A stretch of 64,000 nucleotides of DNA from an uncultured Planctomycetota bacterium (GCA_900696535.1 CAADGM010000016.1:62001-126000), one strand, 5' to 3'; numbered from the stretch's first letter, positions 49,072-63,895 are shown. Notes: generated by a model not told the origin, from the letters alone. Numbers and translations are program-made.

Positions 49072-50265
49072 ATGCGGATAGGACTGGACGCACGAACGCT
49101 GATCGCCACCCGCCCCCGCGGAACCGGGAGAAACCTCCTCGACACGTACCGCGTCCTGCCCGCCCTGCGCCCCGACTGGGAGTTCATCCTCTACCACCAG
49201 CGACCGCTCGATGACGCCGGCGACGTCGAGGCGCCACCCTGGAAGCTACCCAACGTGCGCCTTCGGCAGATTGATCTGCCCGGCGACCGCTTCGACGTGT
49301 GGTTTCAGGTTCGTCTGCCGCTGGCGGCCCGGGAGGACGGCGTTCACCTGCTGCACTGTCCGGCCAACGCGGCCCCGCGCTGGCGGCCGGTCCGCTGCGT
49401 GACGACCGTGCACGACCTCGCGCCGCTGACGGTGCCAGGCGAGGCATCCCGCGCCGAGCAAGCCGCCTTTCGTCGCGGGCTGCTCCGAGCGATCAGCGGT
49501 ACGAGCGTGGTCATCACGCCATCGGAGGCGACGCGTGACGAACTCTGCCGGCAGTTCAACGTCACTGGCGAGCGCGTGGCGATCGTACCGTGGGCGCCCG
49601 ACTCCCGGATCACCGCGACCGCGGACACCCCGATCAGCGAGACCGAGCGACAGCGCATCCGCGACACCTTTGGCCTGGACCAGCAGTACTTCTTGAGTTT
49701 CGCGGGCGACGCGCGTCGCAAGAACGCCGAAGGGCTCATCCAAGCGCTGGCGACGCTCGCGGCGGCGGAGCGCGCGGGCGTCCAAGTCGCGTTCGTGGGC
49801 ATCACCCGCCCGGCGCGCCGCGCCGAGCTCGAGCAACTGGCGGCGTCGCTCGGCGTGGCGCCGGCCTGCCGACTGCTCTCGTTCGTACCCTACGAGGACC
49901 TGCCCACGCTCATTCGCGCGTCGGCCGGCGTGCTCATTCCCAGCCTCGCCGAGGGCTTCGGGCTCCCCGTGCTGGACGCCTTCGCCTGCGGCGCGCCCGT
50001 GGTCGCGTCGCGCTGCCCGAGCCTGGCAGAGGTCGCCGACGACGCGGCCGAGTACTGCGACGCGCACGATCCGGCCACCATCGCGAGCGCGATTCAGGCG
50101 CTTCGCGAGCCACGGCGCGCCGCCGAGCTCGTCGCCCGAGGCCGGAAGCGCGTGGCGCACTTCAGTTGGCTCGCCACCGCGCAGGCCATGCTGCGAGCGT
50201 ATGAGCGAGCCCTGGGCATCGCCGATCCGGCAACGCCGACGGCACAGGAGGTCCGGATCGCGTGA
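49072..50265 (+). CDS. GT4 family glycosyltransferase
   Basis: A 397-residue GT-B glycosyltransferase, probably adding a hexose or mannose residue to the EPS repeat unit. The N-terminus MRIGLDARTLIATRPRGTGR is typical of GT4 enzymes. The C-terminal donor site is PSLAEGFGLPVLDAFACGAP, where the second acidic residue of the EX7E motif is Asp rather than Glu. It ends in a GTGA overlap with the next gene, showing translational coupling. Confidence 0.88.
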   Translation: MRIGLDARTLIATRPRGTGRNLLDTYRVLPALRPDWEFILYHQRPLDDAGDVEAPPWKLPNVRLRQIDLPGDRFDVWFQVRLPLAAREDGVHLLHCPANAAPRWRPVRCVTTVHDLAPLTVPGEASRAEQAAFRRGLLRAISGTSVVITPSEATRDELCRQFNVTGERVAIVPWAPDSRITATADTPISETERQRIRDTFGLDQQYFLSFAGDARRKNAEGLIQALATLAAAERAGVQVAFVGITRPARRAELEQLAASLGVAPACRLLSFVPYEDLPTLIRASAGVLIPSLAEGFGLPVLDAFACGAPVVASRCPSLAEVADDAAEYCDAHDPATIASAIQALREPRRAAELVARGRKRVAHFSWLATAQAMLRAYERALGIADPATPTAQEVRIA

Positions 50266-51458
50266 GCCCCGCCTCGAACAACGCAAGCCGCGGCCCCCTT
50301 GGCCTCCGCCTCGATTGCCGCCACTATCGCGGCGATCGCCCCTGCCGGGCGGGCATCCAGGGCGCCTGTCCGAGCGCGTGCACCGCCTTCGAGCCGCTTG
50401 GCGACCGCATTCTTGTCATCAAGCTCGCGGCCCTAGGCGATGTCATCCGCACGGCGGCGATCCTGCCCGGCCTCAAGCGATACTGGCCGCAGAGTCACAT
50501 CACCTGGGTGTCTCGCCCCAGCGGCGTGCGTGTCCTCAGCGGACACCCACTCATTGACCGGCTCCTTCCCTTTGACGCGGAGTCCCTCTGTCACCTCGAG
50601 CTCGAACGCTTCGACCTGTGTCTCAGTCTCGACAAGGAGCCCGCCCCCGCCGCGCTGGCTATGCGCATCGCAGCCCCGGACAAGCGCGGCATCGGACTGG
50701 GGCCCTTCGGTACACCCTTCCCGCTGAACCCCGAGTGTGAACGCTACTTCCTGCTGGGGCTCGACGACCGCGCGAAGTTCCATGAGAACCGCGCGTCGTA
50801 CCCGCAGCTCATCTACGAGGCCCTCGGACTCGAGTACCGCGGCGAGCGCTACCGCCTGCATCCGCCCGGCGACGCTTGCCGGCGGGCAGCGGACGTCTGG
50901 CACAGGCTGGGCGTCGAGCCCGACGACGTCATCGTCGGTCTCAACACGGGGGCCGGCCGCGTCTTCGCCAACAAGAACTGGCCGCCGGAGAAGTACGCGG
51001 CCCTGGCCGCGCGCCTGTTGGCCGAGCCGGGGCTGCGCGTGGCCCTGCTCGGCGGGCCGGACGAGGAGGAGCAGAACAAGCGCATCGCCGCCGCGTGCCC
51101 GGGAGCGCTGCTGACCGGCAGCCACCACGACGAACCGACCTTCGCCGCGCTGGTGCGGCGCTGCCAAGCGCTCGTCACCGGCGACACGATGGCCATGCAC
51201 GTCGCCATCGCGGCCGACGTTCCGTGCGTCGTGCTCTTCGGGCCCACGTGCGAGCAGGAGATTGATTTGTTTGGCCGCGGTGAAAAGGTGCGGACAACGC
51301 TGCCCTGCTCGCCCTGCTATCGCCGCACATGCGACTTCTCGCCGAGCTGCATGGACGACATCTCACTCGCGCGCGTGCTGGCCGCCGTGCGCCGCTGGCT
51401 CCCCACCCGGGTGAAGTCGCAGACCGTAACGCTGCCTGTGCTGGAGAGCGTATCGTGA
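50262..51458 (+). CDS. GT9 (heptosyltransferase-like) glycosyltransferase with Cys-rich head
   Basis: A 398-residue family 9 glycosyltransferase. The GT9 core begins at about residue 48 (RILVIKLAALGDVIRTAAILP) and has NTGAGRVFANKNWPPEKYA and the donor site CQALVTGDTMAMHVAIAADVP...LFGPT. Before it lies a head of about 45 residues with four cysteines (CRHYRGDRPCRAG...GACPSAC), which may bind a metal. More cysteines near the C-terminus (CSPCYRRTCDFSPSC) repeat the theme. Coupled to both neighbours by GTGA overlaps. Confidence 0.88.
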   Translation: MSPASNNASRGPLGLRLDCRHYRGDRPCRAGIQGACPSACTAFEPLGDRILVIKLAALGDVIRTAAILPGLKRYWPQSHITWVSRPSGVRVLSGHPLIDRLLPFDAESLCHLELERFDLCLSLDKEPAPAALAMRIAAPDKRGIGLGPFGTPFPLNPECERYFLLGLDDRAKFHENRASYPQLIYEALGLEYRGERYRLHPPGDACRRAADVWHRLGVEPDDVIVGLNTGAGRVFANKNWPPEKYAALAARLLAEPGLRVALLGGPDEEEQNKRIAAACPGALLTGSHHDEPTFAALVRRCQALVTGDTMAMHVAIAADVPCVVLFGPTCEQEIDLFGRGEKVRTTLPCSPCYRRTCDFSPSCMDDISLARVLAAVRRWLPTRVKSQTVTLPVLESVS

Positions 51459-52750
51459 GCGACGCCGTACGGCTGCTGCGCGTGCTGGTCGTCGCCGGCG
51501 GCGAGCCGTGGCCACTCGATCACGGCGGCCGGCTGCACCTGTACCACGTCCTGCGGCACCTGTGCACGTGCACCGACGTCACGCTCGCCATTCCCGCGCG
51601 CTTTCGGCATGCCGATCGGCTTCCCGATGGCGTGAAGCGCGTCGAGATCCGCGCCGAGAGCGCCAGCCGCTTCGTACCGGACGACGCCATTGGCCGCCCC
51701 ACGTGGATCGAGCAGCGGGCAGCGCGGCACTTCGGGCTGCGTCCCGAGATCGCGACGTACCTCTGCGAATCCACCGCGGACGGAGCGTTCGACGTGGTGA
51801 TGCTCTGCGGGTCGGTGCTCGGCCAGTACGCCCGCTGCTGCCGGTGCCCGGTGGTCTGGAATCCGCAAGATGAACTGGTGCTGGCCACGCTGCGCGAGCG
51901 GCGCGCACAACCCTGGACGCGCTGGCCCGCACTGCTGAGGCGCGCGGCGCTGTACGCCGTCTGTGAGCGAGCCATTCAGCAACGCGTCGCCGCCAGCGTG
52001 TACGTCTCGCCGATCGACGCCGCCTGGGCGCGGCGCTGGTCGCCGGGGGCCAACATTGTCTCGATCCCGAACGGCGTAGACCTCGACTACTTCCGCCCCA
52101 CAGACCGCGAACCCGTGCCCGGCCGAGTCGTCTTCGTCGGTGCACTCGACTTCGCCCCCAACGTCGATGCCGCCTGCTGGCTCGCGGAGCGCGTCTGGCC
52201 AGCCCTGCGCGCCCGCGATGCGCGCCGCACGCTGCACATCGTCGGTCGCGCGCCGCTGCCCCGCGTGCGGGCCCTGGCTCAGCAGCCCGGCGTCGTCGTG
52301 CGGGCCGATGTCCCGGACGTTCGACCCGAGCTGGCGGCGGCGGTGGTGGTGGCGGTCCCCATGCGCACCGGCGGCGGACTCAAGAACAAAATCCTCGAAG
52401 CCGCGGCGATGCGGCGACCCGTGGTCGCCAGCCCGGTCGCGCTGGGCGGCCTGACGGCGCGGCCCGGGCTGGACGTGCTCGTCGCGGAGGGCGCTTACGA
52501 GTGGACCACACAGCTCGAGCGGCTGCTTTCTGATCCACATGACGCGGAGGTGCTCGCGGCTCGCGGTCGCGCCTGGGTGGAGACAGCGCACGACTGGGCC
52601 CGCACGGGCGAGCAGTTCCGTGCGATACTCGCGCTGGCCGCGGGCAGGCCCGCCACCGCGCCGCCTGCACATGAACCGTTGCCATACGAACCGCCCGCCG
52701 CGCCGCCGCCGGCCGCGGTCGTCGAGACCCAGGAGGCCGTATGCCCCTGA
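51455..52750 (+). CDS. EPS-locus GT4 glycosyltransferase (exosortase-associated sugar transferase type)
   Basis: A 431-residue GT4 enzyme. The acceptor half has the short GGEPWPLDHGGRLHLYHVLR; the donor half has IPNGVDLDYFRP, VFVGALDFAPNVDA and PMRTGGGLKNKILEAAAM. The last motif is typical of the PEP-CTERM/exosortase-associated sugar transferases (TIGR03087 type). The GTG start overlaps the previous stop (GTGA), and the next gene overlaps its end by 10 bases. A Pro/Ala-rich tail closes the protein. Confidence 0.87.
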   Translation: MSDAVRLLRVLVVAGGEPWPLDHGGRLHLYHVLRHLCTCTDVTLAIPARFRHADRLPDGVKRVEIRAESASRFVPDDAIGRPTWIEQRAARHFGLRPEIATYLCESTADGAFDVVMLCGSVLGQYARCCRCPVVWNPQDELVLATLRERRAQPWTRWPALLRRAALYAVCERAIQQRVAASVYVSPIDAAWARRWSPGANIVSIPNGVDLDYFRPTDREPVPGRVVFVGALDFAPNVDAACWLAERVWPALRARDARRTLHIVGRAPLPRVRALAQQPGVVVRADVPDVRPELAAAVVVAVPMRTGGGLKNKILEAAAMRRPVVASPVALGGLTARPGLDVLVAEGAYEWTTQLERLLSDPHDAEVLAARGRAWVETAHDWARTGEQFRAILALAAGRPATAPPAHEPLPYEPPAAPPPAAVVETQEAVCP

Positions 52751-54186
52751 CTGCACTGGCCTTCCTGCTCGTGTACGTCGTCGGCGTGGGGACGGCGCTC
52801 TTGTACCCACTCGCGGGCATCGTGGTCTACATCCTGGTCTATCACATCAACCCAGAAACCCAGTGGTGGGGTTCGTCAGTCGCGTTCCTCGGGCCGCGTA
52901 TGTCGCTCATCGTGGCGATCGCCACGCTGATCGGCATGCTGGTCCGCTGGCCGAAGCTCGAGCATGGTGCCCGCCAGTTTGCCGGCCCCTACGTCCTGGG
53001 GCTCCTGCTGCTGGCCGTCGCCGGCGGCAGCCTGCTGTGGGGGCTGGGCATCGGCGAGCGCGGCCTGTACCAGGCGGAGAAGTTCGCCAAGATCCTCATC
53101 TTCGTCTTCATCCTCATCCGGTGCGTACGCACGCCCCTCGAGTATCACGCGGTCGTGGTCGCCTGGCTCGTGGGCGTGCTCTACATCGGCTACCAGGCGC
53201 TGGGTGGCGGCGGCGTCGTCATCCGCGGACGGCTCAACGAGGGCATCGGCGGCCCTGACTTCGCCGAGTCCAGCGACCTCGCCGTGCACCTCGTGGCCAC
53301 GCTGCCGTGGATCGGTGCGCTCTTCTTCATGGCCCGCACGTGGCTTGGCCGAGGCGCCCTGCTCGTGGTTGGCGCCCTCGCGGTCAATACGCTCATCATG
53401 ACGCGCACCCGCAACGCGCTCGTCGGCCTGGCGCTGGTGATGCTCGGGTGCGTGCTGGCCCTCCCACGCGGTTACCGCCTGAGAGGCGTGGCCGCGGTCG
53501 TCGCCGGCTCGCTCATGGCCGTGCAGCTCACGGACCCCGGCTGGTGGAGCCGAATGGCGACCATCGCCGAGTACAAGACCGACCCCGCCTCGCTCGGCCG
53601 GCTGGACTATTGGTGGGCCGCACTGGCCATGGTGCGCGACCATCCCCTCGGAATCGGCATTGGCAACTTCCACTCGGCGGTCCGCGACTACGTCCCGGGT
53701 CTCACCGAGGAGCGTGGCTGCCACAGCACGCCGCTCGCTTGTCTGGCCGAGTTGGGCTACTTCGGACTGGGCGTCTTCGCCTTGGCGGCGGTCGTGGCCC
53801 TGGCGCGACTGGGTCGCGTGCGCCGAGCGGCCCAGGCACTGCCCCAGACTCTGGAACTCAAGTGGTGGCGCGTTCGAACCCGCTTCCACCTGGGCTGGCA
53901 CGCCGTCGCGCTGCGGGCCGGACTGCTCGGGTATCTCGGCTGCGGCCTCTTCACCACGCGCACGTTCAGCGAGAACTACTGGCTCATGATCGGACTGAGC
54001 GTGTGCCTGTGGAACGCGAGCAAGTACATCGCGGCAACATCGGGCGCGGCGGAACTCCGGCCGCGCGCCGCCTCGGAACCCGCCGAGCTGCCGTCCCCCG
54101 CGGGCGGGCCGGCGATCATCGGGGAGCCCTGCGCGGCGGCGGCCAGCTCGCTGCATCAGCGGTTGCAATCACACGCGCACGCGTAG
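52741..54186 (+). CDS. exosortase-A-associated O-antigen ligase/Wzy-like protein
   Basis: A 481-residue protein with ten or more membrane segments. The N-terminus (LLVYVVGVGTALLYPLAGIV, then NPETQWWG and MSLIVAIATLIGML) matches the exosortase-associated putative O-glycosylation ligases (TIGR03097 type). The large periplasmic loop carries the ligase pattern (HPLGIGIGNF and the His in RGCHSTPLACLAELGYFGLG). It would polymerise EPS units or transfer glycan. A Pro/Ala-rich cytoplasmic tail follows. The start overlaps the upstream gene by 10 bases. Confidence 0.88.
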   Translation: MPLTALAFLLVYVVGVGTALLYPLAGIVVYILVYHINPETQWWGSSVAFLGPRMSLIVAIATLIGMLVRWPKLEHGARQFAGPYVLGLLLLAVAGGSLLWGLGIGERGLYQAEKFAKILIFVFILIRCVRTPLEYHAVVVAWLVGVLYIGYQALGGGGVVIRGRLNEGIGGPDFAESSDLAVHLVATLPWIGALFFMARTWLGRGALLVVGALAVNTLIMTRTRNALVGLALVMLGCVLALPRGYRLRGVAAVVAGSLMAVQLTDPGWWSRMATIAEYKTDPASLGRLDYWWAALAMVRDHPLGIGIGNFHSAVRDYVPGLTEERGCHSTPLACLAELGYFGLGVFALAAVVALARLGRVRRAAQALPQTLELKWWRVRTRFHLGWHAVALRAGLLGYLGCGLFTTRTFSENYWLMIGLSVCLWNASKYIAATSGAAELRPRAASEPAELPSPAGGPAIIGEPCAAAASSLHQRLQSHAHA

Positions 54187-54195
54187 CCGGAGCCC

Positions 54196-57100
54196 GTGGG
54201 CATGAACGTCGCGCTGGTCATCGACAGCCTCGACCTGGGCGGCGCAGAGCGGGTGGTCGAGCGCCTGGCACTGGGCCTGCAGGCCGCGGGCGACCGCCCG
54301 GTTGTCTACTGCCTGAAGGCTCCGGGCGCCGGAGCAGCGCGTCTCGCGGCGACGGGCATCCTCGTGCGATCGCTCCCGCCCCGCCGGCGAGACGTGCTGG
54401 CCCCGCTGCGGCTGGCGGGGTGGCTGCTCTCTGACGGCGTCCACGTCGTCCATGCCCATAGCAGCGCGGCACTTGCGGCCGCGTTTCCCGCCGCGCGCGC
54501 CCTTCGCATCCCGGCAGTCCACACGCGCCATGGCGACCTGCTTGGCCGGCCGAGCGTCTACCGGCGCATCGCCGACCGGCTGGCACCGTTCGTCGACCGC
54601 ACGGTCCTGGTGGCACACTCCCTGAGGCCATGCCTGCCTCGCGGGCGTGCCGTGCAGCGCGCCGTCGTGATTCAGAACGGCGTGGACTGCCAATGTGTTG
54701 ATCGCGACGCCGCTCGACAGGAGCTGGAAGCGCTGTGCGCCCGCCCGCTGACAGGCCCCGTCCTGCTCAGCGTCGGCACCGTGTGCGCCGAGCGCGACAC
54801 ACTCGGGCTCATCGCCGCGTTCGCCCAACTCGCCGAGGACGAACCACACGCGACGCTCGTTTGCGCCGGCGGCAGCCGCGGACCGGACTACCTGGAACAG
54901 GTGCGCGCGGCCGCGCGGAACGCCGGCGTCGCCGAGCGCGTCATCCTGCCCGGCACGCATGCGGCGGCGTGGCGGCTCATGGCCGGAGCGGACGTCTTCG
55001 TACTCGGCTCAGCCAGCGAGGCCGCCCCGCTCGCCGTGCTCGAAGCCATGAGCCAGTCTGTCCCCATCGTCGCGACCACGGTGGGCGACGTGGGCGGCCG
55101 GCCCGCCCCCCCCGCCGAGTTCGCGTTCCTCGAGCACGGTCGTGACGCCCTGCTCGTGCCGCCGCGCGATCCGAAAGCGCTCGCTGGCGCGATCCGCGCG
55201 TGCCTGCGCGACCCCGCGGCTGCCCGCCGGCGCGCCGAGCACGCGAGGGAGCGCTACCGGGCGCGCTTCACGGCCGACCGCATGGTCGCGCAATACCGCG
55301 CGCTCTACGCGGCCCTCCACCCGCGCGCCGCCGTCCGCCCGCACAGTCCCCGCATCGTCCCCGATTCGCCGTGCGTACTCATGGTCGGCCCGGCGACCGA
55401 ACTCGTCGGCGGCATGAACAGCGTGATCGAGACGCTGCTTCACGGCCCGCTGGCCATGCGAGCCAGCCTGGACCGGTTCGGGTTGCCGCCACCCACCGGC
55501 GGCTCGTGCCGCGCCCGGGCCCCCGCGAGTCGGGCAGCCGGGCTCTTCCGACGCCTGCTCGCGCACAGCCGCGCGCTGTTCGACCTGGGCGCGCGGATTC
55601 GGCGGCAGCGGCCCCACGTCGTCCACATCCACACGTGTAGTTTCACCTCGTTCTATCGCAGCGTGGCCGACCTGGTCGTCGCGCGCTGGATGCGCGCCCG
55701 CGTCGTGCTGCACATCCACGGCGGGAGTTTCGCGGCGTTCTGTGACCGTGCCGGGCCGGCCGGCCGGGCCATCATCGCCTGGACTGCCCGCTGCGCCGGC
55801 GCCGTGGTGGTCTTGTCTCACCGCGCGGCCACGTTGCTGCGCCCCTACGTGGGTGACGCACGCATCGAGGTCGTCCCGAACGGTGTCCCCGTGTCGCCCG
55901 AGCCGCGACCGCCGTCCGGCGCGGGCCGCCCGTGCCGGTTTGTGTTCCTCGGAGCCGTGCGCCGTGCCAAGGGGCTGTCGGAGCTGCTCGACGCCGCGTC
56001 ACGGCTGGCGCGCGAGGGCGTTCCCTTCGAGCTGCGCATCGCGGGGCCAGTGGACGACGAGGCGCGCGAGTGGTTGAGCCGGGCGACGATGCTCGGCCTC
56101 GAGCGCCAGGTCCAGTTCCTTGGCCCGGTCCGTGGACCAGGCAAGCAAGCGCTGCTGGCGGAGTGCGACTGCCTGGTGCTGCCAAGCCACGAGGAGGCCA
56201 TGCCCATGGCGATCCTCGAAGCCGGCGCCGCGGGCCTGGCCGTGATCGCCACCCGCGTCGGCGACGTGGCTGACGTGCGCGGCGAAGGGTCGGAAGCGGC
56301 CGGCCCGGGCGGCGGCGCTGTCGCGGGCCAGCTTGTTGATCCGGGCGACGTTGGCGCGCTGAGCGCGGCGATGCGGCACTACGCTGCGAACCCGGCAGAG
56401 CGCGACGCGGCCGGACGAGCACTGCAAGCGCGCGTCGCGGCGCGCTTCTCGATCGAGGCAACGTCTGCGGCCTTGGCGGCCGTCTATGGCCAGGTCCGCG
56501 CGGCGCGCGGCATCGCCGCCGACACGCGGGTCTACGAGCACCTGGTGCGTACGACCATCTATCCGCTCCACGAGCGGTTGCGCGGGCGACGCACCGTGGA
56601 GAAGTTGCACGCGCTGCGCGCGCTCATGCGGCACGCGCCCGCCGAGCTTCAGCGCTTCGTTGACCAGCGCCTGGTGGAAACGCTCCAGTTCGCCCGGCGC
56701 AACCTGCCCTTCTTCGCCGAGATCGAGCTTCGCGACGCGGACTCGCCTGCGCGTGCCGGCGCGCGGGCCGCGCTCTCGCGCCTGCCCGTGCTGAGCAAGG
56801 CCGACGTCCGCCGCCACAGCGACGAACTCACCTGGCCCGACGTGCCGGGCGGGCTCGTTCCGGCCTCCAGCGGCGGCACAACGGGCGACACACTTCACTT
56901 CCACATCGACCGCATCCGCCAGGCGCAGGACCTTGCGGCGCGACTCTTCATGCAGAGCCTCTTCGGAGTCCTGCCCGGCGCGCGGCGGCTGCACCTGTGG
57001 GGTTCACCGATCGAGGCCCGGGCCCGCTGGCTGCGCCGCGTGCGCGACCGCGTCATCAACGAGCGCCTGGTAAGCGCATTCGATCTCTCACCGCGACGCC

Positions 57101-57921
57101 TCGATGCCTATCTCGACGTGCTCGCAGGTTGGCAACCCGCGGTCGTCTACGGCTACCCCTCCGCCCTGGCGGCGCTGGCCCACCACGCGATCGAGCGGGC
57201 GCGGACGCTGCCCCCCGGGCCGCTGCGCCTAGTCGTTCTGACCGGCGAGGAGATCTACCCCCAGCAGCGCGAGGTCATCCAGGCCGCCTTCGGAGCGCCG
57301 GTCGCCTCCGAGTACGGCAATCGCGAGGTGGGGCTGATCGCTCACGAGTGCCCCCACGGCAACCTTCACGTGATCACGCCGCACGTCTGCGTCGAGATCC
57401 TGCGGGGCGGTGAGCCGGCAGCGCTCGGCCAGACCGGCGAGATCGTCTGCACGACGCTCGGCACGCGCGGCCAGCCGATGATCCGCTACCGCGTCGGCGA
57501 CCTGGGGCGCCTGCTCGAGCACGGCTGCACATGCGGCCTGCCACTGCCACTGCTGAAGCTCGAGGGTGGCAAGGTCAGCGGCCTGCTGCGCCTTCCGGAC
57601 GGGCGCCTGTGCCACGGCGCGGTGTCGTCCTACGCCGTGCAGGGCCTGCCCGGGATTCGGGCGTTTCGCACCCACCAGCGCAGCCGGGCGCGGATCGACG
57701 TGCTGGTGGAAGCGGACGAGCGCTTCACGTCCGCGGCGGCCGAGACCGTTCGGCAGCGGTACCGCAAGCTCTTTGGCCCCGCCGTCCAGGTCGAGTGTCA
57801 GGTCGTGGAGCGGATTCCGCCCGACCCCTCGGGCAAGCGGCGACACGTGATCTCGGACGTGGTCGACCAGGCCGACGCGGCGGCGCTAGATCACGTCAGC
57901 GAAACGGTGCTCGGTTCGTGA
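54196..57921 (+). CDS. GT4-GT4-PaaK/CapK-like three-domain fusion
   Basis: One 1241-codon reading frame joins three enzymes normally made separately. Residues 1-375 are a GT4 glycosyltransferase (VALVIDSLDLGGAERVVERL; donor motif GSASEAAPLAVLEAM near 274). Residues 390-775 are a second GT4 (VLMVGPATELVGGMNSVIE; PSHEEAMPMAILEAG near 665). Residues about 790-1241 are a phenylacetate-CoA-ligase/CapK-like adenylate-forming domain (PASSGGTTGDTLHFH near 888, SEYGNREVGLIAHECPHG, IRYRVGDLGRL). CapK-like proteins are common in capsule loci, where their reaction is poorly known. The start may be GTG 54196 or ATG 54202. The 3' end overlaps the convergent permease by 36 bases. Confidence 0.88.
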   Translation: MGMNVALVIDSLDLGGAERVVERLALGLQAAGDRPVVYCLKAPGAGAARLAATGILVRSLPPRRRDVLAPLRLAGWLLSDGVHVVHAHSSAALAAAFPAARALRIPAVHTRHGDLLGRPSVYRRIADRLAPFVDRTVLVAHSLRPCLPRGRAVQRAVVIQNGVDCQCVDRDAARQELEALCARPLTGPVLLSVGTVCAERDTLGLIAAFAQLAEDEPHATLVCAGGSRGPDYLEQVRAAARNAGVAERVILPGTHAAAWRLMAGADVFVLGSASEAAPLAVLEAMSQSVPIVATTVGDVGGRPAPPAEFAFLEHGRDALLVPPRDPKALAGAIRACLRDPAAARRRAEHARERYRARFTADRMVAQYRALYAALHPRAAVRPHSPRIVPDSPCVLMVGPATELVGGMNSVIETLLHGPLAMRASLDRFGLPPPTGGSCRARAPASRAAGLFRRLLAHSRALFDLGARIRRQRPHVVHIHTCSFTSFYRSVADLVVARWMRARVVLHIHGGSFAAFCDRAGPAGRAIIAWTARCAGAVVVLSHRAATLLRPYVGDARIEVVPNGVPVSPEPRPPSGAGRPCRFVFLGAVRRAKGLSELLDAASRLAREGVPFELRIAGPVDDEAREWLSRATMLGLERQVQFLGPVRGPGKQALLAECDCLVLPSHEEAMPMAILEAGAAGLAVIATRVGDVADVRGEGSEAAGPGGGAVAGQLVDPGDVGALSAAMRHYAANPAERDAAGRALQARVAARFSIEATSAALAAVYGQVRAARGIAADTRVYEHLVRTTIYPLHERLRGRRTVEKLHALRALMRHAPAELQRFVDQRLVETLQFARRNLPFFAEIELRDADSPARAGARAALSRLPVLSKADVRRHSDELTWPDVPGGLVPASSGGTTGDTLHFHIDRIRQAQDLAARLFMQSLFGVLPGARRLHLWGSPIEARARWLRRVRDRVINERLVSAFDLSPRRLDAYLDVLAGWQPAVVYGYPSALAALAHHAIERARTLPPGPLRLVVLTGEEIYPQQREVIQAAFGAPVASEYGNREVGLIAHECPHGNLHVITPHVCVEILRGGEPAALGQTGEIVCTTLGTRGQPMIRYRVGDLGRLLEHGCTCGLPLPLLKLEGGKVSGLLRLPDGRLCHGAVSSYAVQGLPGIRAFRTHQRSRARIDVLVEADERFTSAAAETVRQRYRKLFGPAVQVECQVVERIPPDPSGKRRHVISDVVDQADAAALDHVSETVLGS

Positions 57922-58734
57922 AAACACGGTGAGCCCCACCGCCAGGCAGATCAGCGTGACAGCCAGACCCGGCAGGAGCAGTAGCGGGTCCAGGGTGTAG
58001 TTCGGCAGCAGCGCCCAGCGCGTGCCTTCAACGACCGCCACCATCGGGTTCAGTGCGTACCAGGAGCGCCACGCGGGCGGGATGAGCGACAGTGGGTAGA
58101 CCACCGGCGTCGCCAACATCCACGCCTGAACGAGGAACGTGGACGCGGCCGAGACATCCCGGAACCGCACGTTCAGTGAGGCCAGCGTCAACCCGATGCC
58201 CAGCGCGGCCAGCGCGGCCAGAATCGCCCAGAGCGGCAGCGTCAGAACGGGCCAGCCGGGCCACACGCCGTAGTACCCAGCCAACAAGCCGTAGCTCGGC
58301 AGCACGCAAAGCAGGTCGATCGTTGAGGCTCCCAGCGCCGCCAGCGGGAGAATCAGCCGCGGGAAGTACGCCTTGGTGATCAGCCCCGAGTTCGCCACGA
58401 GGCTCACCATGACGGCGCGCAGACTGCGGCCGAAGAACGTCCAGATGAGCACGGCGGCGAAGCATGACAGGGCGTACGGCACCGCGCCCGCGCTGATGCC
58501 CGCCAGGTGATGAAAGAGGAGCGTGTAGAGAGCCGCCCCCGCCAGGGGCTCGACCAGCGCCCACGACACTCCGAGGACAGTCTGCCGGTAGCGAACCCGG
58601 ATGTCGCGCCACGCGAGGAACGCCAGCAGCTCGCCATGTCGGCGCAGCGCCGTCCACGGCACGACGGGACCTCGTCCCCCTGCTTCGATCACGGTCAGCG
58701 TTGTCGCCGGATTGGCCGGGGCGGCGGCTGACAT
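57886..58734 (-). CDS. ABC-2 type polysaccharide export permease (Wzm-like)
   Basis: A 282-residue membrane protein with six hydrophobic segments and the ABC-2 pattern of polysaccharide/teichoic acid exporters (LLAFLAWRDIRVRYRQTVLG, then VPYALSCFAAVLIWTFF, LVANSGLITKAYFPRLILP, LNVRFRDVSAASTFLVQAWM, PVVYPLSLIP). The ATPase partner (Wzt-like, TagH-like) is not adjacent in the window. Its start lies 3 bases after the stop of the ExeA-like ATPase on the same strand, so those two are coupled. The ExeA-like ATPase is not an ABC ATPase and cannot replace the partner. Confidence 0.88.
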   Translation of the reverse strand: MSAAAPANPATTLTVIEAGGRGPVVPWTALRRHGELLAFLAWRDIRVRYRQTVLGVSWALVEPLAGAALYTLLFHHLAGISAGAVPYALSCFAAVLIWTFFGRSLRAVMVSLVANSGLITKAYFPRLILPLAALGASTIDLLCVLPSYGLLAGYYGVWPGWPVLTLPLWAILAALAALGIGLTLASLNVRFRDVSAASTFLVQAWMLATPVVYPLSLIPPAWRSWYALNPMVAVVEGTRWALLPNYTLDPLLLLPGLAVTLICLAVGLTVFSRTEHRFADVI

Positions 58735-58737
58735 GGG

Positions 58738-60156
58738 CTAGTCGGTGTTTCCGGGGTAGGCGGGCGGGCCGGAAATGCGCGTCGCCAGCGCCGCCAGCGG
58801 TCGGCCGGCGACAACCAGCGTCGTCGTCACGCGATGCCGGGCATCTCGCACCCGGGCCATGATTTCGCCCAACCGCGACTCGAGTCCATGCAGCGGCGGT
58901 CGCGCGGGCTGCGTAGTCGGCGGCGGGTCCCGGTTCGCGGCCGCGACGGTTGGCGATGTCGAGTCCGTGGTCTCGACGCACGAAACCGCGTCCGCGACGC
59001 CAGTGGCCGCCGTCTGTTCGCCCTCGGTGCCAGGCCCGTCACCGGCGTCGCAAGTGCCGTACTCGCGCTGCCCGGCCGGGCCGTCCGGCGCGGGATCTTC
59101 CGCGCGCAGTCCGATGTCCTGGCTATCGGGCCCCGCCGCAGCCGAGTCGGCGACCTCGACCGCCGCGTCCTCGTGGTGGGCTGCCGGCATGTTGGAGGCT
59201 GCCACGCAAGTGTCGTCCGCGCTGACGAACGTGGGCAGCGAGGCGTCCTCGACCAGGCGCGCCACGGACGTCGGCGCGGTGCGGCGCGCTGCCGGTCGCG
59301 ACCACGCGACAGACTCAGCGTCGCGCGCCTGCCGCGGGCGGCGCCACGGACCGCAGATCGCGTCGTAGGCCGCCGCGATGTGCTCGGCTTCGATCGTCGC
59401 GCGCTCGTCGCCGTAGGCGTCGATCAGCGCGCTGTCGCAAATCTGGTTGATCGCGGCGGGGTTGCCGCGCGCCGCGCGGTGTATCTGCTCGATGGCCGAC
59501 GGCGTGAAAACGATCGTCCCCCCCCCGGCCGTGGCGAGCCGGTGCTCGATGTACGCCGCCGTGTCGTTCGCGCTGAGCGGCTCGAGCCGGCAGATGCGGA
59601 AGAGTCGGCGTCGCAGGCGCGCCAGGGCGGGCGTCCCGAGCCGCGTGGCCAACTCGTCCGTCCCCAGCGCCACCAGCGTGACCACCGGCCCATCTTGCGC
59701 CTCGCGCGCCAGCAGCGCCAGGATGTCGCTCCAGGCGTTTTCGCGAAGCGCGTCCGCGTTGTCGGCGATCGCGACCACCGGTGCTCGCGTGCGACCGCGC
59801 GCGCGAACCCAGGAAGACAGGACCGCGTCGTACGGCGGCTCCGTGGCCAGCCGGCCGCCGCCGCGGAGGGTGTTGAGCGGATACACCGAGATTTCGGTCT
59901 GCCCTTTGGGTTGGCCGAGACCGTGAATCCAAAGGACATACGCCGTTCGGTTCACGCTCTCCGCCAAGAGCCTGGCCACGAGCGTTTTACCGGACCCCGA
60001 GGCCCCTAGAATCACGACGCCGCTCTTGCCCGTGCGGGCGGCGAACTGCGCCGTGGCCAGCGCTTCCTGGTGCGAGGCGCCTGCGAAGAAGAACGCCGGT
60101 GCCGGCGGCCCTTCGAACGGCGGCAAGCGAAGGCCAAAATGGCGATAGGCGTGCAT
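58738..60156 (-). CDS. ExeA-like AAA ATPase (exosortase-locus type)
   Basis: A 472-residue protein. The N-terminal about 270 residues are an ExeA/GspA-type AAA+ ATPase: YRHFGLRLPPFEG...F.GASHQEALA opens it, Walker A GASGSGKT is at 51-58, Walker B-like VVAIADNAD follows, and RLRRRLFRICRLEPL is a sensor region. This is the layout of the XrtA-associated ATPase of EPS loci (TIGR03015 type). The remainder (about 280-440) is a low-complexity acidic/Ala-rich linker ending in a short conserved-looking segment. MHAYRHFG at 60156 is the start. Likely coordinates EPS export. Confidence 0.85.
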   Translation of the reverse strand: MHAYRHFGLRLPPFEGPPAPAFFFAGASHQEALATAQFAARTGKSGVVILGASGSGKTLVARLLAESVNRTAYVLWIHGLGQPKGQTEISVYPLNTLRGGGRLATEPPYDAVLSSWVRARGRTRAPVVAIADNADALRENAWSDILALLAREAQDGPVVTLVALGTDELATRLGTPALARLRRRLFRICRLEPLSANDTAAYIEHRLATAGGGTIVFTPSAIEQIHRAARGNPAAINQICDSALIDAYGDERATIEAEHIAAAYDAICGPWRRPRQARDAESVAWSRPAARRTAPTSVARLVEDASLPTFVSADDTCVAASNMPAAHHEDAAVEVADSAAAGPDSQDIGLRAEDPAPDGPAGQREYGTCDAGDGPGTEGEQTAATGVADAVSCVETTDSTSPTVAAANRDPPPTTQPARPPLHGLESRLGEIMARVRDARHRVTTTLVVAGRPLAALATRISGPPAYPGNTD

Positions 60157-60386
60157 TGGACGCACAGACTCCGGGGTCCTGCGGATACATCGGCTGAGCC
60201 GGCAAGGACCTCGAACAACGTGCCGCGCAGCTTCGACGCCCCCCGTCTATCAGTCCGCCCGGGATAAACCCGTTTCACATGCCCCGGAAATGAGTCGATA
60301 ACTGCCGACAGAGGTGCGCCACTGCGCAAGACTCCGCGCGGCCGTGGCCACGCGGACAACCAGCCTGATCCCACGAGGATGCCGCG
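60157..60386. other. divergent promoter region of the EPS export genes
   Basis: 230 bases between the ExeA-like ATPase (minus) and the Wza-like gene (plus). No convincing promoter pair or operator was recognised. Confidence 0.3.
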
Positions 60387-61208
60387 ATGCGGACCGCCGT
60401 GCGTGAACGCATACCTGAACACCCGGGAGCAACCACGCTGCTCTGGACCGCGCTGTGCGTCGTCGGCCTGGCCACGAGCGGCTGCGCCACGCGACACGGC
60501 GACGCGGTGGCGTTCGTCAAGGAGAGCGAGGCCGAAGTTTCCACCGGCACGTACATCGTCCGCCCGCCCGACGTGATCACCATCCACGCACCGCGCACCC
60601 CGGAGATCGACGGCGCCTCGCAGATGATCCGCAGCGACGGCAAGATCGTACTGCGGCTCCTGGGCGAGATCGAAGTTGCCGGCCTGACCACGAGCGCGAT
60701 CGCCGACAAGATCAAGGCCCAGCTCGCGCGCTACTATGTCGACCCGGAAGTGATGGTGCAGGTCTCGGGCTACAACAGCCAGTTCTACTACATCTTTGGC
60801 GAGGTCACGCATCCGGGGCCGGTGCGCTTCACCGGCCGCGACACGCTGCTGATGGCGATGGCCCAGGCTCAGCCGACGTTCTTCGCGTGGAAGTCGCAGA
60901 TTCGCGTGACGCGGCCGGCCGACGAGAAGGGCGAACGCAAGACGATCATCTTCGACCTCGACAAGGTGGTGGCCGAAGGGGACACGAGCATCAACTTCCT
61001 GCTCCAGGAAGGCGACATCATCGAGGTGCCGCCCACGCCGCTGGCCTGGCTCGGGCACCGCGTCCGCGAGGTGCTCTACCCGGTCGAGCCGGTGTACAGG
61101 GCCTACACGCTGCCGGCGGGAGGCATCAACGCTCACCGAACCTACCAGGATGAGTTTGGCGGCTCGAACGACGACACGGACAGCTTCCGGCGTCGGTTCG
61201 CCCGCTGA
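60387..61208 (+). CDS. polysaccharide biosynthesis/export lipoprotein (Wza-like)
   Basis: A 273-residue outer-membrane polysaccharide exporter. A signal peptide ends in the lipobox LATSGC with Cys33. The Poly_export domain follows (STGTYIVRPPDVITIHA; IRSDGKIVLRLLGEIEVAGL; YVDPEVMVQVSGYNSQFYYI), then a SLBB-type domain (GEVTHPGPVRFTGRDTLLMA...). It pairs with the chain-length protein and CpsD kinase in the next two genes. It is shorter than E. coli Wza (379), lacking the C-terminal amphipathic barrel helix of that protein. Confidence 0.92.
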   Translation: MRTAVRERIPEHPGATTLLWTALCVVGLATSGCATRHGDAVAFVKESEAEVSTGTYIVRPPDVITIHAPRTPEIDGASQMIRSDGKIVLRLLGEIEVAGLTTSAIADKIKAQLARYYVDPEVMVQVSGYNSQFYYIFGEVTHPGPVRFTGRDTLLMAMAQAQPTFFAWKSQIRVTRPADEKGERKTIIFDLDKVVAEGDTSINFLLQEGDIIEVPPTPLAWLGHRVREVLYPVEPVYRAYTLPAGGINAHRTYQDEFGGSNDDTDSFRRRFAR

Positions 61209-61232
61209 GGACAGGCGAGGATACGCCACCGC

Positions 61233-63005
61233 ATGAGCAGCGCGCCCGGACAAGCCTTCGACGACCTCCGCCAGAGCCTCCACGAGGTCACGCGCGTCGT
61301 GCGCCAGCGGTGGCGGCTCTCGACGATCGGGCTGGCGGTGGTCGGCGCGGCGGCCTTCTGGATCAGCCAGTACCTGCCGCGCGAGTACACCGCGTCGTCG
61401 CTGTTCGAGCGACGCGACGACGTCGTGCTCCAGAACATCATCCAAGGCAACTCGCCGTACAGCTTCGAGCGACTGAAGTCGACCATGTCGCTCGACATGG
61501 TGGGGTCGCGGGCCCTGTTGCGCGGCGTGATCAGCATCGGGTTGCTGCCGCGGGAAACGCTGACCAGCCCCGGCGCGCTGAGCGACGCCGAGCGCGCGTC
61601 GCTGGAGTCCGTCCTGAAGCAGTACGAGCTGCGGGCGGACGTACGGCTGGTGCACAGCAGCTCGACCCTGGACCAGATCCTGCTGCGCTGCGCCGGGAAC
61701 GACCCGCAGGTGGTGCGGGCGCTGGTCGTAGCCCTGCGGGACAACTACATCGCCGAGTCCCGCGAGCGGATGCACGAGATTCTCGGCAGCACGCGGTCGT
61801 TCTTCGCCGGCGAGGTCGAGCGGCTGCGCGGCGAGCTCGCGCGCCGCGAGTCCGAGCTGCGCAGCGGTTACGACGAGTTCCCCGGGCTGGACCCGACCGA
61901 CATCGTGGGCGTGGGCAACCGTCTCGAGCTGCTCCGGGCGCAGCGCGACAGCTACTTCCAGCGCAAGGCCGCGCTGGAGGCCGAGGCGGCGGCCCGCGAG
62001 CAGTTCCTCCAGACCGCCGCGGCCCGCGAGGCCGAGTTCGTGCAGAAGTACAGCCCGGCGCCGACGTCGTCGCCGGCCGGAGGCGTGAGCGACGCCGTGG
62101 TTGACGAAGCCGTCCGCGCCGTGAAGCGCGAGCTGGTGGAGCTGGTCACGGTCCGTCGGATGACGATGGAGCATCCGCAGGTGCGGGCGTTGCAGGATCG
62201 GCTGGACGCGCTGGAGTCGCTGCGGACGGCGTTGGCCGAGACGGCGCCGGTCGAGTCGCCGCCGGAGCGTCCCGGGCCGCCGCCCGGCAGCGAGGTGCTG
62301 GCGCAGTGGCAGGCCCAGCAGATGCGCGTGGAACTGGAGCTGGACGCGACGCGCAAGCAGCTCACGGTCGTTTCCCGCCAGTTCGACGAGGCCGAGGAGC
62401 GACTCGCCCGCTTCGAGTCTCTGTATGAACAGCTCGTCGCCAAGGACGACACGTTTCGTGACGTTCTTGACCGGCGGGCCCAGCTCTCGCAGGAGCTGGC
62501 GGTCTGGCAGAGTCACTTGTCGGGGCTCGAGCGGATCATGACCGCCGAGACCGGCGAGCGTGGCACGCAGTTCGCGCTGATCGAGGAACCGGAGGACGTC
62601 ACCCAGCCGACACGTCCGCGCGTCGCCTCGGTATTCGCGGTCTGTTCCAGCATGGGCCTGGCGGCGGCCGTGCTGCTGGCGGCGCTGGCGGAGCTGCTCG
62701 ACCGGTCGTTCCGCTCGGTCAATCAGGTGGCCCGCTCTCTTGGAGTTCCCGTACTCGCCTGCATTGGCGTCGCACCCACGCCGACCCAGCGCCGCCGAGC
62801 GCTTCGCGCTCGACTGTTCTGGACACCAACACTCAGCCTGCTGGTCATCGCGCTTCTGGCGTCGGCCAGCCTGGCCTACACGAGCCTCCGCTGGCCGCAC
62901 GTACACCGCGCGGCCCTCGAGCGCGTCGCCGGCGCGCTCCAGCACGCGGGCGTCAGCGGCCTCTTTCCGGTCTCGCCGCCCACTGGGGAGGTTCCGCCGC
63001 CATGA
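61233..63005 (+). CDS. Wzz/GumC-like polysaccharide chain-length protein
   Basis: A 590-residue inner-membrane PCP protein that would control EPS chain length and contact the Wza-like pore. One membrane segment at about 30-50 precedes a long periplasmic part with a Wzz-type domain (PREYTASSLFERRDDVV) and coiled coils (about 190-430). A second segment at about 470-490 (MGLAAAVLLAALAELLDR) matches the Wzz C-terminal helix. A third hydrophobic stretch at about 525-545 (LFWTPTLSLLVIALLASASL) is extra. It overlaps the CpsD-like gene by 4 bases (ATGA). Confidence 0.88.
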   Translation: MSSAPGQAFDDLRQSLHEVTRVVRQRWRLSTIGLAVVGAAAFWISQYLPREYTASSLFERRDDVVLQNIIQGNSPYSFERLKSTMSLDMVGSRALLRGVISIGLLPRETLTSPGALSDAERASLESVLKQYELRADVRLVHSSSTLDQILLRCAGNDPQVVRALVVALRDNYIAESRERMHEILGSTRSFFAGEVERLRGELARRESELRSGYDEFPGLDPTDIVGVGNRLELLRAQRDSYFQRKAALEAEAAAREQFLQTAAAREAEFVQKYSPAPTSSPAGGVSDAVVDEAVRAVKRELVELVTVRRMTMEHPQVRALQDRLDALESLRTALAETAPVESPPERPGPPPGSEVLAQWQAQQMRVELELDATRKQLTVVSRQFDEAEERLARFESLYEQLVAKDDTFRDVLDRRAQLSQELAVWQSHLSGLERIMTAETGERGTQFALIEEPEDVTQPTRPRVASVFAVCSSMGLAAAVLLAALAELLDRSFRSVNQVARSLGVPVLACIGVAPTPTQRRRALRARLFWTPTLSLLVIALLASASLAYTSLRWPHVHRAALERVAGALQHAGVSGLFPVSPPTGEVPPP

Positions 63006-63895
63006 GCTCGATGAGCAAAGTTCTGGCCAAGCTCGACGCTGACGAGTCCCGCGCGCCCGAACCGGCCGCGGCGGAAGACGTGCTGGCGGCGGGGATGGCC
63101 GATTCGTCCGCCGAGGGGCTCGGCGATAACGCGGACGGTTCCCAGTTCGTTCCCGATCCGTCACGGCCGCTCGACATGCGGCCGCCTGTCCTCGGCACTC
63201 CGTCGTTCGACATCAACGGGGAGACGCGCGCGTGGGATGCCGCCCGAATTGATCCGGTCATCACGCTCTTCCACCAGCGCTACGCACCGATCAGCGAGCA
63301 GTATCGCGGCGTGCGGGCGCGCCTGCTGGCGACGAACGCGAGCCAGGCCGCCCAGGCGATCGTGGTCACCAGCGCGGTGCCCGGCGAGGGCAAGACCGCC
63401 GCGACGATCAACCTCGGGCTGGCCCTGGCCGAAGGCGGCGAGCACCGCGTGCTCATCGCGGACGCGGACTTCCGCCGGACGTCGGTCGCGCGGATGCTCG
63501 GTGCGGAAGATCGCCCCGGGCTGGCGGACGTACTCCGCGGCGAGGCAACGCTCGGCCAGGCCCTCCAGCCCACGCCCCTTCCGAACCTGAAGCTGCTGCC
63601 GGCGGGAACCGTCAGCGCGCAGGACTTCAGCGAGCTGCTGGGCGGCACGAACGTGGCGACGACGCTGGACGACTTGCGTCTCGGCTTCCACTACGTGCTT
63701 CTGGACACGCCTCCCGTGACGACCGTTTCCGACGTGAGCCTGCTGGCCCCGAATTGCGACGGCGCCCTGGTCGTGGTCTGGATGCGCCGGACACCCGAGC
63801 CGCTCGTGCAGCAAGCCATCCGCACGCTTCAGGCGAACAACGTGAAGGTTCTGGGCTGCCTGCTGTCCCGATTCCATGAGCGCGGCGCCAATTGA
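63002..63895 (+). CDS. CpsD/CapB-family tyrosine kinase-like ATPase
   Basis: A 297-residue cytoplasmic BY-kinase-type ATPase. Walker A SAVPGEGKT is at about 124-132, Walker A' VLIADADFRR at about 150 and Walker B YVLLDTPPVT at about 230. Its companion is the chain-length protein just upstream, which in this split design normally activates the kinase. The C-terminus ends ...LLSRFHERGAN without the Tyr-rich cluster usual for BY-kinases, so classic autophosphorylation there is not possible. Confidence 0.9.
   Translation: MSSMSKVLAKLDADESRAPEPAAAEDVLAAGMADSSAEGLGDNADGSQFVPDPSRPLDMRPPVLGTPSFDINGETRAWDAARIDPVITLFHQRYAPISEQYRGVRARLLATNASQAAQAIVVTSAVPGEGKTAATINLGLALAEGGEHRVLIADADFRRTSVARMLGAEDRPGLADVLRGEATLGQALQPTPLPNLKLLPAGTVSAQDFSELLGGTNVATTLDDLRLGFHYVLLDTPPVTTVSDVSLLAPNCDGALVVVWMRRTPEPLVQQAIRTLQANNVKVLGCLLSRFHERGAN

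Follow-up and report, generated by a model that had tools for sequence, protein, structure and literature searches.

CapK-like adenylating proteins are found in bacterial polysaccharide loci. Haft et al. 2006 (PMC1569441) constructed a phylogenetic profile of the PEP-CTERM system, in which NE2015, a "possible CapK protein", is the 15th best match; the link of CapK to the XrtA/PEP-CTERM system is thus not new, being visible already in 2006. The XrtA/PEP-CTERM exopolysaccharide (EPS) loci described there share TIGR03087 glycosyltransferase, export, chain-length, autokinase, FemAB and deacetylase genes with the locus analysed here, which lies in the window (the whole stretch of DNA, 64,000 nucleotides) and its continuation. 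Their CapK is a separate protein, whereas in the window it is fused to two family GT4 glycosyltransferases, in a member of the Planctomycetota with its exosortase genes on other contigs. In the EPS cluster of Rubrivivax gelatinosus, capK directly adjoins group-1 glycosyltransferases, as it does here, and transposon insertions in capK were recovered in a screen (PMC3684757); in contrast to the window, these are separate genes, and the phylum is a different one. GT4-GT4 double proteins of related Planctomycetota possess the same two domains in the same order on a single chain, but their CapK is encoded by a separate gene. The open papers that we searched, including few from subscription journals, contain no account of a GT4-GT4-CapK fusion, nor of a settled CapK reaction.

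The source genome (G000) is a draft in 270 contigs that totals 4.24 Mb, with 96% completeness and ~6% estimated contamination; its named relatives place it in the Planctomycetota, Phycisphaerae-type. The fused gene and its neighbours in the window are as follows.

49072-50265, + strand: GT4, upstream operon gene (profile matches; order as in family relatives)
50262-51458, + strand: GT9, upstream operon gene (profile matches; order as in family relatives)
51329-52750, + strand: TIGR03087-like glycosyltransferase, upstream operon gene (profile matches; order as in family relatives)
52741-54186, + strand: TIGR03097-like protein of the O-antigen-ligase type, upstream operon gene (profile matches; order as in family relatives)
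54196-57921, + strand: whole fused gene, one open frame of 1241 codons with uniform codon-position GC
54202-55320, + strand: first GT4 domain, residues 3-375 (Pfam, NCBIfam, GT-B model, HepE/BshA-like fold)
55018-55044, + strand: EX7E motif of the first GT4 domain, E275 and E283 (alignment of 17 relatives)
55321-55365, + strand: linker 1, residues 376-390 (pLDDT <50 at 378-388)
55366-56505, + strand: second GT4 domain, residues 391-770 (Pfam, model, BshA-like fold)
56194-56220, + strand: EX7E motif of the second GT4 domain, E667 and E675 (alignment)
56506-56535, + strand: linker 2, residues 771-780 (unfused relatives have a stop or a change of frame at this junction)
56536-57870, + strand: PaaK/CapK-like adenylate-forming domain, residues 781-1225 (NCBIfam PaaK-type matches, PaaK relatives in the PDB, Foldseek matches to PaaK2, BT_0428 and NatL2)
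56866-56886, + strand: SSGGTTG, A3-type ATP-phosphate loop of the CapK domain, residues 891-897 (motif and alignment)
57826-57837, + strand: PSGK, A10-type motif with the catalytic lysine, residues 1211-1214 (SGK in all homologues covering the site)
57886-58734, - strand: ABC-2 permease, convergent with the fusion (profile matches)
58738-60165, - strand: XrtA-type ATPase, TIGR03015-like, convergent with the fusion (profile matches)
60387-63895, + strand: EPS export protein, chain-length protein and XrtA-type tyrosine autokinase (profile matches)

Judged by its gene content, the locus is probably an XrtA/PEP-CTERM-type exopolysaccharide operon. Two models, TIGR03019 (FemAB) and TIGR03087 (one glycosyltransferase), score above their curated cut-offs, TIGR03006 (deacetylase-like) falls just below, and TIGR03015, 03018, 03007, 03027 and 03097 are clearly below. 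The FemAB/GNAT-type gene lies at L062:5876-7027. The upstream order of GT4, GT9, TIGR03087-like glycosyltransferase and ligase is largely common to fused and unfused relatives. In the source genome, 31 PEP-CTERM matches exceed the cut-off, and two exosortase genes (PF09721) are located outside the EPS locus. A 1050-codon ORF at 60012-63164 on the - strand was rejected as a gene: codon-position GC and family matches show it to be a spurious reading of the strand opposite the export and chain-length genes.

The fused frame opens with GTG, closes with TGA and is free of stops in between; the start codon is probably the ATG at 54202, two codons in. Codon-position GC is gene-like in a single frame over the whole length, with a third-position GC of 82-92% in each 300-base slice, both junctions included. 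A first-pass annotation had read this frame as one 1241-residue protein with two GT4 glycosyltransferases and a PaaK/CapK-like domain. The stop-free frame confirms the former, and the Pfam and NCBIfam matches, motifs and folds the latter; the hallmark sites that it had placed near residues 274, 665 and 890 correspond to E275, E667 and the SSGGTTG starting at 891.

Three GT4 profiles of Pfam (PF13692, PF00534 and PF13439) exceed their cut-offs on two stretches each, indicating two full GT4 units. The nearest named NCBIfam model for the first is TIGR03088, with a score below cut-off. The EX7E glutamate pairs lie in the C-terminal halves of the domains and are nearly invariant among the 17 aligned relatives. 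AlphaFold2 models give both domains a GT-B fold, for which Foldseek retrieves HepE, BshA and other GT4 structures. Residue 200 of the first domain is an arginine in place of the lysine present in nearly all relatives, a conservative change near the donor site. Both domains are predicted to be active GT4 glycosyltransferases, their active-site motifs being kept. Since they are neighbours and are fused across the family, it is plausible that they would act in series.

The last third of the fused protein matches PaaK-like proteins of solved structure (PDB). NCBIfam PaaK-type models match residues ~968-1177 well below their curated cut-offs (the best, NF045666, at 106 bits vs 300), and no Pfam match was obtained for the CapK part at E<=0.001. 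Foldseek assigns the domain to the PaaK fold, with PaaK2 and BT_0428 as top matches (E about 1e-21) and ClxA, NatL2 and AjiA1 as further neighbours. NatL2 (6siw), BT_0428 (4r1l), PaaK1/PaaK2 (2y27, 2y4o), ClxA (9s3l) and AjiA1 (6wuq) have the same fold and motifs at 18-22% identity; unlike the CapK domain they are stand-alone enzymes, and the substrates of NatL2 and PaaK are small molecules, not glycans. The A3, A5, A7 and A10-type motifs are all present (SSGGTTG; YGNRE, 1040-1044; YRVGD, 1098-1102; PSGK). The A8-type hinge, GRxxD, is without its usual Arg...Asp and reads GKVSG (residues 1124-1129 of the fused protein). A GKVSG-like hinge is found in nearly all members of the window's family, fused and unfused alike, and the hinge reads GRTTD in other families of the order. 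Ordinary CoA-ligase chemistry should therefore not be assumed for this domain. It stays in the ANL superfamily, because the fold and the other motifs fit despite the altered hinge. Given the PaaK fold and the A3/A5/A7/A10-type motifs, we predict that the CapK domain adenylates a carboxylate in an ATP-dependent manner. No dedicated acyl or amino-acid source was identified within the 64-kb window. An N-acyl amino acid made by the exosortase-linked synthase TIGR03694 was rejected as a candidate substrate, as the synthase gene was not found in the source genome.

The three domains are joined in the same manner in other genomes. A full-length match in one open frame occurs in G016 (52% identity, residues 2-1223) and G019 (48%, residues 3-1230), so that complete fusions exist in two further genera of the window's family at 48-52% identity. 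G026 belongs to the genus of G016; its contig opens partway through the first domain and shows the second GT4 joined in frame to CapK. Altogether, four among 114 genomes of the order, in three genera (G000, G016, G019 and G026), carry the fusion. The matching named records are metagenome-assembled genomes of separate origins and assemblies: CAIWOY010000235 (isolate AlinenSedimentsCore3, "uncultured Phycisphaerales"), PMMM01000232 (isolate fen_1342, "Phycisphaerales") and JACRLV010000188 (isolate NC_groundwater_1890, "Planctomycetota"). Across 55 codons at the junction, G016 and G026 differ by 20 bases with no stop and no frame change. Such recurrence in separate assemblies, together with the coding-like evolution of the junction, makes a shared assembly error very unlikely. 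AlphaFold2 predicts three folded enzymes, with a mean pLDDT of 85.3 for residues 1-780 and 87.9 for residues 389-1241, although the relative placement of the domains in these models is unreliable (pTM 0.64 and 0.53). Low pLDDT is mainly confined to linker 1, a few loops and the C-terminal tail, and the second junction is modelled as a short loop between helices. Neither of the two refuting conditions named by the first-pass annotation was borne out: the architecture recurs in independent assemblies (G016, G019, and the GT4-CapK junction in G026), the domain borders fit folded enzymes with short linkers, and the split genes of relatives, proposed as a sign of sequencing error, are real unfused genes and give no evidence of an error here. 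From sequence comparison, the GT4-GT4-CapK protein is judged a genuine, rare and lineage-specific fusion.

Counting the locus as present at E<=1e-60, we find it in 14 of the 27 family genomes, four of which have the triple fusion. In the remaining ten, as far as contigs allow, GT4-GT4 forms one frame and CapK lies in another frame or past a stop; parts of the locus are unseen in G018, G025, G002 and G004 owing to contig breaks. In G002 the CapK ATG comes after nothing more than a TGA and a short spacer in the same frame. G079, which belongs to a different family of the class, has a 798-codon GT-GT frame closed by a TGA, with CapK following in that same frame. The GT4-GT4 double protein also occurs in other families of the class (G069, G070, G098, G185), and in other families of the order (G027, G034, G031, G050) the two glycosyltransferases and CapK are separate adjoining genes. 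Samples comprising 397 genomes of the class and 392 of the phylum yielded no further fusion, and none of the plasmid records had a match spanning 80% of the fused protein. A search for related loci yielded none with the single protein as query and six with an alignment, all from Planctomycetota; other phyla were scanned for close relatives only. This distribution shows a stepwise build inside one conserved operon, from three genes to GT4-GT4 plus CapK and then to the triple protein. In a tree of the three concatenated domains, the window protein groups with G016/G026, and G019 with the unfused G009, G012 and G014 (UFboot 99). A tree constrained to unite the four fused proteins in a single clade is rejected (AU p=0.014). 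These results favour two fusions, or a single fusion followed by re-splitting, with moderate strength because trees of the individual domains have weak support and conflict at some points.

Several apparent fusions were rejected. The fusion flagged in G079 (4-1226) is split by the TGA between GT-GT and CapK, the one flagged in G002 (1327) by the TGA and ATG in between, and a putative GT-CapK fusion of G450 has an upstream half that does not resemble a GT when read in the frame concerned. A larger fusion of 1641 codons in G019 was also discarded: its N-terminal ~400 codons are an open stretch upstream of the first GT start that contains an N-run and has no match to GT or CapK domains, and the supported part is GT-GT-CapK. 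Separately, the first GT4 of G002 (L055:9953-10860) is shorter by ~65 residues, in frame and including the EX7E region; this is either a degenerate enzyme or an assembly collapse.

The best explanation of these observations, to which we give a probability of roughly 0.6, is a genuine fusion of three adjoining EPS-operon genes with linked activities in building and modifying a glycan. What is generally known of GT4 enzymes points to two successive sugar transfers to a lipid-linked precursor in the cytoplasm. On the cytoplasmic side, the two GT4 domains would thus extend a lipid-linked repeat unit by two consecutive sugars. CapK would use ATP to form an acyl- or aminoacyl-adenylate, and the activated group would be passed onto the same growing glycan, either directly, via a carrier or via the nearby FemAB-like transferase. 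Fusion would provide the three activities in equal amounts and hold them in one place. An unlikely extension of this reading is that CapK acylates or aminoacylates in cis, without CoA, the sugar just added by the fused pair, the fusion having been favoured more than once. If true, the protein would be an enzyme that glycosylates twice and then decorates, performing a glycan-modifying reaction unassigned to any PaaK/CapK protein in the papers searched. From the fusion, the first-pass annotation had proposed a coupled series of two transfers plus acyl or amino-acid activation. A shared pathway of the three enzymes gains support, and such an activation is plausible. Its further claim that the fused partner is a strong clue to the CapK substrate does not hold up well: the clue is weak, because the fusion is present in only three genera, unfused relatives run the same operon, and CapK can adjoin FemAB elsewhere in the order. 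The fusion strengthens the case for three enzymes working together, and by itself does not reveal the group that CapK attaches.

A competing reading, possible though in our opinion doubtful, is that genes lying end to end were joined neutrally and do the same work as separate proteins, with no channelling or coupling. The ten unfused family members that keep the same operon and the restriction of the fused state to three genera agree with this, and G002 and G079, where only an in-frame stop and a short spacer part GT-GT from CapK, indicate that the step is an easy one. On the other hand, the three active sites are kept over deep divergence (~50% identity), and the tree test speaks against a single origin (AU p=0.014), implying repeated fusion or re-splitting; neither point is decisive against neutrality. 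Probable repeated fusion of the same neighbours argues modestly for CapK acting on the glycan that the GT4 pair makes, or on a precursor of that glycan; the argument is not decisive, because CapK has other neighbours elsewhere.

We assign a comparably low probability to the CapK domain being a plain acyl-CoA ligase that feeds a soluble pool for another acyltransferase and does not itself act on the glycan. The PaaK fold with PaaK1/PaaK2 as structural neighbours, the CoA-ligase names of the NCBIfam relatives and the FemAB/GNAT-type gene within the locus speak for this. Against it, the GRxxD hinge is altered in the window's family (GKVSG in the window), and some PaaK-family members work without CoA, among them NatL2, which forms an ester straight from the adenylate (PMC7204872).

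The true partner of CapK might instead be the FemAB-like protein, for which it would activate a carboxylate, the fusion to glycosyltransferases being incidental. FemAB directly follows CapK in G037, G041, G059 and G339, where no glycosyltransferase of this type adjoins, and a FemAB gene is also present in the window's locus. As several genomes of the order place CapK beside FemAB and not beside a glycosyltransferase, the acceptor for CapK is not necessarily a glycosyltransferase product. However, CapK directly follows the second glycosyltransferase in G027, G031, G034 and G050, and several genes separate FemAB from CapK in the window's family. FemAB proteins of known function, moreover, use aminoacyl-tRNA and not adenylates, and we regard this alternative as improbable. 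That a sequencing or assembly error joined separate genes is barely credible: the contig-rich draft with its contamination and the many unfused relatives would allow for it, but three genera, sequenced in separate projects, have the fusion, codon bias is continuous over the junctions, and two congeneric species show an open, in-frame junction.

The GT4-GT4-CapK protein is a true and rare fusion, built stepwise in a known kind of EPS locus, and offers a useful handle on CapK. A single chain with two glycosyltransferases and an intact CapK is a compact expression target, and the natural first candidate for the acceptor is the glycan product of its GT4 pair.

Two observations on gene order are added here. 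At L019, L020, L024 and L078 (G041, G037, G059 and G339), CapK is followed by FemAB and then by a TIGR03087-like glycosyltransferase; CapK and FemAB are possibly a functional pair in these genomes. In the window and its continuation (57886-63895 and L062), the block of export, chain-length, autokinase, FemAB, glycosyltransferase and deacetylase genes has the same direction as the fusion, with the ABC permease and ATPase in between. The export-to-deacetylase block is inverted, being convergent with the fusion or the CapK gene, in G016, G019, G026 and G014 (L046, L047, L048 and L053), and the EPS locus has accordingly been rearranged as a block.
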